Source: an uncultured Desulfatiglans sp.
GTDB taxonomy: Bacteria > Desulfobacterota > DSM-4660 > Desulfatiglandales > Desulfatiglandaceae
DNA: 64,000 nucleotides
Assembly (NCBI GenBank): GCA_900498135.1
Contig: LR026961.1
Location: forward strand, 315,226 to 379,225
Direction: 5' to 3'
In this document: positions 58,823-63,384 of the stretch, one piece after another
Layout of the letters: each line of letters opens with the position of its first letter
Numbering within the stretch: the stretch's first letter is position 1
Notes under the pieces: generated by a model
Database searches by the model: none
The model's input: the letters and a program-made list of their open reading frames with translations, nothing else
What the model was told of the DNA's origin: nothing
Program-made: the position numbers and the translations under genes

Positions 58823-58963
58823 GAGAGATAGGGAGGCCCCTCGCTCGATGCACGCGGGTGTGCGCCGCGTCACCTGGAACCGTTTTTTCAAGGGATTCGA
58901 ATGAGAGCGGGGATGGAATCTTGTCAGCGGCCGACGGCTGCGACCAATCGAAGGAGTGCCCAG

Positions 58964-59689
58964 ATGAAGGCGTTTCTCGGATTTGTCTTCGTCATCGCCT
59001 GTGTGGCGGGGTGTGCAGGAAACCGCTTCGAAAACACCCAGCCGGAAGGGGTACCCGGCGCCTCCCGCATGGGTTTCCTAGGAGAGTATTATCGGCACCT
59101 GACGCCCGGTCCGCCGGGCGGGGCCAGGATGCGCTGGTTCAAACCGGGTACGGACTTCCATAAATACACGCGGATCATGATGGACAGCGTAGTCTTCTAT
59201 TATTCTGAAAAATCGGAGGATTTCGGTATCGATGCGGTGGAGATGAAGGACCTGACGGACATCTTCAACAAGGAGATCGTCCATGCACTTCAAAAAGGGT
59301 ACCCGATTGCAGCCGAACCCGCCCCCGACGTCATCCGGCTCAAAATCGCCATAACGAACCTCGAGAAGAGCAAGCCCGCTCTAAGCGCCGTCACCACGGT
59401 CATTCCTGCAGGGATGGGCGTGAGTCTCATAAGGAGAGGAGCCACGGGTGTCTGGAGTGGCGCGGGCGAGATATCCATCGAGGTATTGGCCCTCGATTCG
59501 GTCAGCAACCAGGTCATTGGCGCAGCGCAGGACTGCCGCTCTGCGGCCTTTACGGAAAGATTCACCTCCCTCGGAATGGTCCAGAAGGCTGCCAAATACT
59601 GGGGCGACAAAGTCCGACACCTGATGGACATCGCCCAGGGCAGGGGCGGATCTGCCCCACCTTCCAATGGCGGCCGTTCCGATGGGTGA
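58964..59689 (+). CDS. DUF3313-type lipoprotein
   Basis: A 241-residue lipoprotein. Lipobox VAGC lies near residue 17, followed by GFLGEYYRHLTPGPPGGARMRWFKPGTDFHKYTRIMMDSVVFY, the DUF3313 signature. The later part (IRLKIAITNLEKSKPALSAVTTVIPAGMGVSLI, GEISIEVLALDSVSNQVIGAAQD) fits the family. AAGGAG precedes the ATG at 58964. The DUF3313 proteins are envelope lipoproteins without a defined activity. It is convergent with the peptidase-like lipoprotein. Confidence 0.87.
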   Translation: MKAFLGFVFVIACVAGCAGNRFENTQPEGVPGASRMGFLGEYYRHLTPGPPGGARMRWFKPGTDFHKYTRIMMDSVVFYYSEKSEDFGIDAVEMKDLTDIFNKEIVHALQKGYPIAAEPAPDVIRLKIAITNLEKSKPALSAVTTVIPAGMGVSLIRRGATGVWSGAGEISIEVLALDSVSNQVIGAAQDCRSAAFTERFTSLGMVQKAAKYWGDKVRHLMDIAQGRGGSAPPSNGGRSDG

Positions 59690-59734: not shown

Positions 59735-61003
59735 TCAATTCATGCCTATCTTCTCAGGAGACGTTATCAAGACGGACAGGTTTTTCCCCTCATATCCAAG
59801 GGCCACAATGGCCACGCCATGGGTTTTGTCGATGAAGGCGCTTCTGTTTTTCAACTCGGGCCTGTAGGTGGCATGCTGCAAATAAGGTGTGGACGGATCC
59901 GCATCCATGATCTTCGCCGTTCCGCTCCCCTCCTCGGCATCAGGGTCGACCTGTATGACCAGCATTCCGCAATCGGGCAGCACCTTGTCATAATGGATGG
60001 GCTGCCGGTTTTCCACCAGATAATATCGACCCCCCTCAAGGGGCACCTTGACAGCCAGGATCCCTCCTTTCCCGGCAAGAGGCGCCAATACGACTCTCTG
60101 AGTCTCCCCCGGGTTTACGCGAACGACCTGTTCGGACGATATCCAGCCCAGTCTGATCTTTGTGAAGGAAGACAGCCCCGGCGGAGGCCCCTTCCGGTCG
60201 ACGAAATGCGCCGACATCACATCCCATCCTCCCATGTAGATGGTGCATTCTTCCCAGCGATGGCGCATCGAAGCGTCAGCCTGACGCTCGAAATCATACA
60301 GTCAAGGCACCAGCCGCTTGCCGTGCTGCACACCTCCCAAGGCATGAAAGAGATCATGGGCGAACATCCCCAGATGGGCGTTTTCAGCGGCGACGAACAC
60401 CCCTCCCGAAAAGGTCGCCCCGCCCTGGGCCCGGAGCGTCACGAATGCGGTATTTCTCCTCACGCCGGTCAACATCCCGGGGTTGGCGCAGTAGCAGATC
60501 ATGCCGTAGCCCTTGCCGGGCAGGGTGAAGGCCCCGGGAATGACGAGCATATGATCGTATTGTGAGAAATCGATCCGTGCTTCGACCGCCGTCATGGCAT
60601 CTTCGATCAATTTTCTGACCCTGCCCCGATCCACCTGAAAGTTATCCGGACTCACGCGGTATTCCGAAAGGTCGTCGGGCAGGGGAATCCATCCCTCGAA
60701 ATGAGGTTTAATCCAAGCCTGTCCGTAGGATTGGGCCTTTACATAATCGTTCAGTCGGTTGGTGGCCCTTTCCTTGATATGATTTAAATTGCATTCGGGC
60801 GCCACATCTTTGAAGCGGACCGCCAGCATGAGCACCCGCTGCTCCCCTTTTGCGCTGTTGGATTGCGGCCCGAGATCGGCGCCTCCAACCGCCACCCCGG
60901 AAGAACCCTCCGCCGGTCCGGCGACCGGGGCCCCCCTGCAGCCGGAAAAGAAGAGCACACAGAACAGAACGCCTAAACCGTATCGGGACATGACTGTCCG
61001 CAT
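59735..61003 (-). CDS. M6-like lipoprotein metallopeptidase with in-frame TGA (candidate selenoprotein)
   Basis: Read through one TGA, this is a 422-residue lipoprotein. It has a lipobox FFSGC with Cys22, a domain resembling M6 (immune inhibitor A-like) peptidases (QRVLMLAVRFKDV at about 55-67; the putative zinc motif HDLFH at 216-220, with Asp where HExxH has Glu), then KRLVP-TGA-LYDFERQ at codon 234 and a downstream MGGWDVMSAHFVDRKGPPPGLSSFTKIRLGWI region typical of these proteins. Both halves are in one frame with no sign of other decay. From my memory of the family, homologues have Cys at the TGA position. A SECIS-like hairpin follows. AGGAGG precedes the ATG at 61003. If TGA is a stop, this is a pseudogene split at 60302. 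Confidence 0.62.
60270..60304 (-). promoter_or_regulatory. Candidate bacterial SECIS element
   Basis: It begins at the TGA (60304-60302). Twenty bases later AGCGTCA pairs perfectly with TGACGCT around a GGC loop (60281-60279), extended by a G-U pair. Distance to the loop, a G in the first two loop bases and the compact upper stem match the general bacterial SECIS description. Confidence 0.5.
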
Positions 61004-61587: not shown

Positions 61588-63384
61588 ATGAAAGTGAAAC
61601 ACGTGGTCTATTCTTTGTTGTTTGCCTCGTTGGTCCTTCTTGTTCCGGCGGGGAATTCGTCCGCCCAGAACCCGACCCCTTTGAAGGTCGTGCTCGTCTT
61701 CGATATCGGTGGAAGAGGCGACGGAGGATTCAACGATGCCGCCCACAGAGGCCTCGAAAAAGCGGTTGCCGAACTGGGGGTCGAGGCCGTGTACGTGGAT
61801 CAGGAGCGGAGGCTGGAGCGCGACCATGCCGTCGATGCGGCCGCGGCTTCCGATGCGGATCTGATCATCGGCGTCGGCTTCGCCTTCTCGGAGAAGTTGC
61901 ATCAGCTCGCCCTGAAATTCCCCCGCAAAACATTCGTCTGTGTAGACTACAGCATGAGGCGCGACGACAAGGGGCGCCCCTTGCCGCTGCCTCCCAATCT
62001 GGCCGGGCTTGCCTTCAGGGAGGAGGAAGGCTCATATCTCGTCGGGGCTATCGCGGCCCTCACGAGCAAGACCGGGACCATCGGTTTTATCGGCGGGATG
62101 GATAACCCGATCATCCGGAGATTCCAGGCAGGGTACCTGGCCGGCGCACGCGCCGGGCGGCCGGATATCCGCGTGCTGTCGAAATATGCCGGGATAACCG
62201 GTGCAGCCTTCGACGATCCCGAGAAAGGATACCAGATCGCCCGCCGCATGTACCGGGAAGGGGCGGACATCATCTACCACGCATCGGGCGGCACAGGTGC
62301 CGGACTTTTCCGGGCGGCGAAGGAAACCAAGCGGCTGGCGATCGGTGTAGACGTCGATCAGAGCGCTCAGGCGCCCGGTCTGGTGTTGACCAGCATGCTC
62401 AAACACATCGATGTCGCGGTGTTCGAAAGCGTCAAGGCCCGCGCGGAAGGGCGTTTCTCCGGAGGGCTCAAGACCTTCGGACTGAAGGAGAAAGGCGTTG
62501 GATTTGTTTATAACGACCAGAACCGGAACCTAATTCCCCCCGAGGCCTATCACACCGCTCTCTCCCTGCAGCAAAGAATCGTCACGGGTGAGTTGGAGGT
62601 TCCCGCCTCGACCGATGAAAGACTGCTCCTGTCCCGGGAAGAGCTTCAGGAACTCCTGGTGCGGTTGCACTCGGAGGTGACGGGCGCGTTGGAAAGACTC
62701 GACGGTGATCTGACGCAGAGCGCAAAGGCGCTTGCCGGAAAGGACCTGACAGGTGATGTTGCCCGGGCCATGCTTCGAAAGCTCTACGCCGACAACCCTT
62801 ACATCATCGACTGCGAAACAGTCAACCCTGAAGGGATCATGGTGGCCGTCGAACCCCCGGAGCACAGGGCATCCGAGGGCAGCGACATCAGCGCTCAGGC
62901 CCACATGGTTAGACTGTTCAAGACGCGCGAACCGGTCTTGAGCGATTCATTCCGCTCCGTCGAAGGCCCACAGGCGGCTGTCATTCACCATCCCGTATTT
63001 GCTTCCGACCAACGGTTCGTAGGTTCCATCTCGGCGCTTTTTGCGCCGGAATACCTCTTGTCCGGCATCATCGGACCGGTCTCTTCCAACCTGCCGGTCG
63101 ACATCTTCCTGATGCAGACCGACGGTCTGATTATCTACGATGTGGATGCGGAACAAATCGGACGGAACCTCTTTACGGATGCCCTGTACCAGCCCTTTCC
63201 CGAACTCGTTGCGCTGGGTGGAAAAATCGCTTCCACCCCTGAAGGTGAGGGTGTTTACAGCTTTTATCTGAAAGAAGGAAAAATCCCCGTAAAAAAGACG
63301 ATTTTCTGGCGGACCGTCGACCTGCACGGCACCGCCTGGCGCATTGCCATCGCCTGCGCGCAACAGCATATGGAAAATCCGTAA
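61588..63384 (+). CDS. BMP-family solute-binding protein fused to a Cache-like sensor domain
   Basis: A 598-residue exported protein. A signal peptide (about 1-26) is followed by a BMP/PnrA/Med-type binding domain (about 30-335): LVFDIGGRGDGGFNDAAHRGLEKA, ADLIIGVGFAFSEKLHQLAL, FIGGMDNPIIRRFQAGYLAGA, IIYHASGGTGAGLFRAAKE, GVDVDQSAQAPG and VLTSMLKHID. Then comes a helical linker (about 350-385) and a periplasmic sensor-like region (about 385-595) with a Cache pattern (DNPYIIDCETVNPEGIMVAVEPPEHRASEGSDIS, HHPVFASDQRFVGSISALFAPEYLLS, LIIYDVDAEQIGRNLFTDALY). BMP proteins bind nucleosides or related ligands. No ABC permease is adjacent. GGAGGCAGGAG precedes the ATG. Confidence 0.8.
   Translation: MKVKHVVYSLLFASLVLLVPAGNSSAQNPTPLKVVLVFDIGGRGDGGFNDAAHRGLEKAVAELGVEAVYVDQERRLERDHAVDAAAASDADLIIGVGFAFSEKLHQLALKFPRKTFVCVDYSMRRDDKGRPLPLPPNLAGLAFREEEGSYLVGAIAALTSKTGTIGFIGGMDNPIIRRFQAGYLAGARAGRPDIRVLSKYAGITGAAFDDPEKGYQIARRMYREGADIIYHASGGTGAGLFRAAKETKRLAIGVDVDQSAQAPGLVLTSMLKHIDVAVFESVKARAEGRFSGGLKTFGLKEKGVGFVYNDQNRNLIPPEAYHTALSLQQRIVTGELEVPASTDERLLLSREELQELLVRLHSEVTGALERLDGDLTQSAKALAGKDLTGDVARAMLRKLYADNPYIIDCETVNPEGIMVAVEPPEHRASEGSDISAQAHMVRLFKTREPVLSDSFRSVEGPQAAVIHHPVFASDQRFVGSISALFAPEYLLSGIIGPVSSNLPVDIFLMQTDGLIIYDVDAEQIGRNLFTDALYQPFPELVALGGKIASTPEGEGVYSFYLKEGKIPVKKTIFWRTVDLHGTAWRIAIACAQQHMENP

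Follow-up and report, generated by a model that had tools for sequence, protein, structure and literature searches.

The selenoprotein candidate described here lies near the end of the window, the 64,000-nucleotide stretch of an uncultured Desulfatiglans genome that was analysed as a whole and whose numbering is used throughout. On the minus strand, a frame runs from an ATG at 61003 to a stop at 59737-59735 and contains one internal stop, a TGA at 60304-60302 that forms codon 234. The terminal stop is also a TGA. The gene limits and the position of the TGA agree with a preliminary description of the locus. Its features are as follows.

59735..61003, minus strand: putative selenoprotein gene, an open frame with a single TGA, encoding 422 residues including Sec234
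61006, minus strand: alternative GTG start
61020-61013, minus strand: Shine-Dalgarno-like AGGAGGTG upstream of the ATG at 61003
60938..60949, minus strand: lipobox FSGC (Cys22) at the end of the signal peptide, by motif recognition
60488..60496, minus strand: CYC motif (Cys170, Cys172), candidate partner thiols for Sec, from the pattern of Cys retention
60344..60358, minus strand: HDLFH (His216, Asp217, His220), counterpart of HExxH, from invariance in alignment A3 and from hhalign
60302..60304, minus strand: putative Sec codon TGA, codon 234, in a column that is TGA in ten species and otherwise Cys or Asp
60272..60288, minus strand: bSECIS hairpin with a 7 bp stem (AGCGTCA/TGACGCT) and a GGC loop, from synonymous invariance and fit to the published model
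60206..60226, minus strand: WDVMSAH, the Met-turn region (Met263), from invariance in A3 and alignment to M6 WSLM

A plus-strand gene for a DUF3313 protein (58901-59686) lies tail to tail with this gene, and another plus-strand gene at 61588-63381 encodes a Bmp/PnrA-like periplasmic binding protein fused to a sensor domain. Comparison of gene neighbourhoods across 16 loci found no conserved neighbour of the family genes. The encoded protein ends about 40-60 residues short of most homologues, which carry a C-terminal extension whose role is unknown. A lipobox-like motif is present in 6 of 8 Sec proteins.

Conservation of the TGA and its hairpin

Searches of related genomes returned homologues at ~56-63% identity, all with TGA in the same column and all followed by a hairpin. 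Altogether the TGA and hairpin occur in ten species, nine in one clade (the window gene, L018, which equals L039, L020, L021, L022, L023, L024, L025 and L040) and one, L048, in a second, distant clade. Ten further homologues have Cys at column 234 (L026, L041-L046, L049, L067 and L069), and L047, from the second clade, is the only member with Asp; Trp was never seen there among the relatives aligned. Two Cys genes show the state of the hairpin where there is no TGA. In L041, a close Cys relative, the hairpin is gone and the protein at that place is almost unchanged, and in L067, a congener of L048, TGT stands in place of TGA and the stem is lost. With the site masked, the tree requires three changes of the Sec label, and well-supported branches make two of these unavoidable; exchange between Sec and Cys has therefore happened on more than one occasion. 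A second phylum-wide search returned the same genomes as the first, and no relatives of the family were found among viral contigs.

Among the genomes carrying family members, G020 (L025, L027, L028) has two copies of the gene, broken or fragmentary; in its L025/L027 copy the frame changes before the TGA is reached, close to the end of a contig, where an assembly error is possible. There is also a separate all-Cys clade (L044, L026, L045, L046, L069) in which GLCG replaces CYC and the C-terminal extension is missing, with one member in G021, a genome that belongs to the window's own taxonomic family.

Purifying selection acts on both sides of the TGA. Across eight species, amino acid identity is 70% before the TGA and 67% after it, with conservation of 0.85 and 0.80 at second codon positions and 0.46 and 0.42 at third positions. 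This position-wise pattern past the TGA indicates that the downstream half is selected as protein.

The hairpin begins 13 nt after the TGA in the window gene, with its loop at 20 nt, and an additional G-U pair lengthens it to 60271-60289. In the nine-species clade the hairpins have a 3 nt loop starting G[G/U], a stem of 7-8 bp and a spacing of 20 nt. Both types of hairpin in the family fit the bSECIS constraints quoted in PMC13188914: the main-clade type (loop GGC/GUC, 7-8 bp, 20 nt, -14.3 kcal/mol), and the different one of L048, which has a GGCC-GUC-GGCC core and a GUC loop 27 nt downstream of the TGA (-12.9 kcal/mol). Minimum free energies within the nine-species clade range from -8.7 to -14.4 kcal/mol.

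Taken alone, such a hairpin is not convincing. When a comparable hairpin was defined as a perfect stem of at least 7 bp with a loop of 3-6 nt downstream of a TGA, 19 of the 2028 TGA triplets in the window (0.9%) had one, making the hairpin by itself only moderately unusual. Folding energy is also unremarkable (z -0.7) and, being close to background, was not used as evidence. An Rfam covariance search around the TGA gave only a chance-level snoRNA match on the opposite strand. The decisive evidence is comparative, namely the TGA and hairpin shared by ten species together with conservation at synonymous sites. Over eight usable full-length genes, no synonymous difference occurs at codons U+5 to U+9 in any of 118 comparisons (100% invariant), against a gene-wide level of 44%. 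These codons rank best among 237 five-codon windows, and none of 200,000 random five-column draws equalled their conservation. Because the hairpin hardly varies, it offers little covariation: one stem pair is swapped on both sides in L020 (A-U to C-G, compensated) and one is broken in L021.

The machinery to decode UGA as selenocysteine is present in the host genome (4.8 Mb, one contig), which encodes SelA (532 bits), SelB (387 bits, over the cut-off) and a UCA tRNA-Sec (selC, anticodon TCA). In addition, selA was found in all 19 other genomes tested that carry a family member. Two elongation-factor-like genes at G000:C1:2223102-2223992 and 2238308-2239198, 15 kb apart, have nearly equal scores with the SelB model and are likely duplicated EF-Tu genes.

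These results support the preliminary description, which had proposed a selenoprotein from the letters and translations alone. Its perfect 7-bp stem with a GGC loop held, its figure of 20 nt being the distance to the loop, and the Cys it gave for related proteins in a VP-C-LYD context is found in the ten Cys homologues. Among the outcomes it had named as refuting were homologues lacking Cys or Sec at column 234, where we find Sec (TGA) or Cys with a single Asp, and absence of the selenium genes, where selA, selB and tRNA-Sec(UCA) are all present. The refutations that could be tested were checked and none came true. The YqeB protein it had cited in support was not found among the open reading frames scanned, which were not all of those in the window, and is not needed for the case. 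We consider it nearly certain that the gene is intact and not a pseudogene and that its internal stop codon is read as selenocysteine, although there is no protein or selenium measurement.

An M6-like fold with an altered metal site

The protein scores below the cut-offs of both M6 models, with 16.3 bits against 22 for Pfam PF05547 and 66.5 against 110.8 for NCBIfam TIGR03296. A structure model built from 17 homologues (pLDDT 87, pTM 0.85) matches immune inhibitor A2 (InhA2) with VIA Z 25.6 and 2.7 A over 332 residues, and Foldseek matches it to the M6 (InhA) fold with E 7e-14. The next structural matches, at about Z 11, are other zinc metallopeptidases, mostly metzincins. The protein is thus predicted by modelling to have the M6 (InhA) fold.

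When the family profile is aligned with hhalign to classical M6 proteins from its own phylum (99.9%, E 2.6e-32), HDLFHALG falls opposite HEFGHWLG and, after an eight-residue insert, VP-U-LYD opposite LP-D-LY. U234 falls on the D of LPDLY, which is the Asp of HExxHxxGxxD and, in thuringilysins, the third zinc ligand (PMC12237041). It is likely that Sec234 occupies this ligand position, with the reservations that the insert lies just before it in the alignment and that no distances were taken from coordinates.

None of the 17 members of A3 varies at either His, the two Gly or the Met of the Met-turn, nor at the H, D and H of HDLFH or the W, D, M, S and H of WDVMSAH. Every family member has Asp where the catalytic Glu would be. 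The family motif is HDxxHxxGG-x8-P-[U/C/D], which departs from HExxHxxGxxD at two points: Asp stands in for the catalytic Glu and, after the eight-residue insert, Sec or Cys for the third-ligand Asp. The M6-like label in the preliminary description therefore held for the fold and is refined in that the M6 peptidase motif is not satisfied. With the catalytic Glu replaced throughout, catalysis is uncertain.

Upstream of this site, every full-length Sec or Cys member retains one or both Cys of the CYC motif, whereas L047, the Asp member, has neither. A link between the CxC and residue 234 remains unproven, since one Asp member is too few.

Proposed mechanism and rival explanations

In the mechanism we propose, the gene would encode a lipoprotein of the M6 (immune inhibitor A) fold that is secreted, with export inferred and an outer-membrane or periplasmic location probable. 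The hairpin 20 nt downstream would recode UGA to selenocysteine, and Sec234 would replace the third zinc-ligand Asp to give a His216/His220/Sec234 metal site. Sec234 may also pair reversibly with a Cys of the upstream CxC strand, and the site would carry out metal- or redox-dependent chemistry in place of ordinary HExxH proteolysis. Each of the residues seen at column 234 (U, C or D) is capable of binding metal. That they replace one another at a ligand position speaks for a metal site, the CxC that goes with them speaks for redox chemistry, and the missing catalytic Glu speaks against an ordinary peptidase. Our inference is that this selenoprotein holds a metal through a His-His-Sec site and is probably redox-active. 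For this explanation in full, an M6-fold selenoprotein whose His-His-Sec site works with the CxC in redox chemistry, the evidence tips modestly in favour, with any proteolysis and the bound zinc being inferences. Whether selenium is bound to metal in at least one state is a question on which we see the arguments as evenly balanced, as this is inferred without metal-binding data. A bolder reading goes further than we are inclined to follow: that of an enzyme with the metzincin fold in which Asp, Cys and Sec have replaced one another as third metal ligand. In its natural His-His-Sec site, probably for zinc or iron, selenium would ligate the metal and also make a reversible Se-S bond to the CxC strand.

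The most serious rival, which remains possible, accepts the selenoprotein and removes the metal: the protein would be an oxidoreductase working purely by thiol/selenol chemistry, on an M6 scaffold that has been inactivated, with Sec234 and a CxC Cys as the redox pair. It would fit the view that most uncharacterised selenoproteins are redox proteins (PMC13188914), the retention of a CxC Cys in every full-length Sec or Cys member, the lost catalytic Glu and the scores with a model for M6-like inactivated metalloproteases. Against it stand the invariance of the Met-turn and of the two metal-binding His, and the Asp of L047, for which a pure thiol mechanism leaves no room.

There are two further rivals. 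A nonsense-mutated pseudogene with a chance hairpin would fit the Pfam M6 score under the gathering score and the ~1% chance of such a hairpin per TGA, but it is all but excluded: it would need ten independent pseudogenes at one codon, and it is contradicted by purifying selection after the TGA, by conservation of the hairpin at synonymous sites and by the Sec machinery in the genome. It is also very unlikely that the UGA specifies a different residue, for example Trp, or that short and long forms are programmed. Leaky UGA read-through does occur in bacteria, and a short form stopping at the TGA at 60304-60302 cannot be excluded without data. However, column 234 in relatives is Cys or Asp and never Trp, the gene's own terminal TGA at 59737-59735 means that TGA is still a stop here, and tRNA-Sec, SelA and SelB are present.

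Novelty and comparison with known systems

The preliminary description knew of no M6-type selenoprotein, and this held within the inventories and literature searched. The inventory of PMC13188914 (119 families/subfamilies, May 2026) lists no metallopeptidase or M6 family, and no metallopeptidase of this kind is listed in it, in PMC9312934 (2022) or in the deep-Sep study (PMC12013277). The NCBIfam selenoprotein models named in the inventory gave no convincing match to the family, the only hit being one member to TIGR01862 at chance level (E 0.14). The 2022 list does contain a trypsin-like serine protease, which belongs to a serine protease family and is not a metallopeptidase. The deep-Sep "Hypothetical protein DG/DW/DF" were weighed as possible earlier sightings, but their models (NF049953, NF041197, NF049942) did not match. 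The full-text literature searched contained nothing on a selenoprotein among M6 proteases; supplementary tables were outside its scope. The family is thus new to the selenoprotein lists examined, with an earlier mention not excludable. It would add to the selenoproteome a family from uncultured relatives of deltaproteobacteria whose fold is neither thioredoxin-like nor one of the known redox folds, and its natural Asp/Cys/Sec series at one ligand position poses directly the question of what selenium adds to a metal site. Such genes are likely misannotated as truncated or as two genes.

The family shares with M6 peptidases (thuringilysin/immune inhibitor A; PDB 4YU5, 4YU6) the whole-length fold, two invariant His, the Met-turn and the equivalent ligand position. 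It differs from them in having HDxxH in place of HExxH, the eight-residue insert, Sec or Cys for the third-ligand Asp and a CxC motif, and in scoring under the Pfam and NCBIfam cut-offs. A degenerate M6 relative, the T9SS-dependent M6-like inactivated metalloprotease (NF052323), is scored by all 17 A3 members, but the best match covers a small part of the 1043-position model and the window protein reaches 20.4 bits against a cut-off of 600. Like the predicted bacterial selenoprotein families of PMC13188914, this one combines UGA, a bSECIS and Cys homologues in genomes with selA/B/C. If our reading of the metal site is right, it would share with [NiFeSe] hydrogenases and formate dehydrogenases a Sec that ligates the catalytic metal. 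To our knowledge no selenium-ligated peptidase-like site has been described, and this family would be the first, if true; the hydrogenases and formate dehydrogenases have Ni or Mo/W sites in unrelated folds, whereas the site proposed here is a metzincin His-His-Sec.
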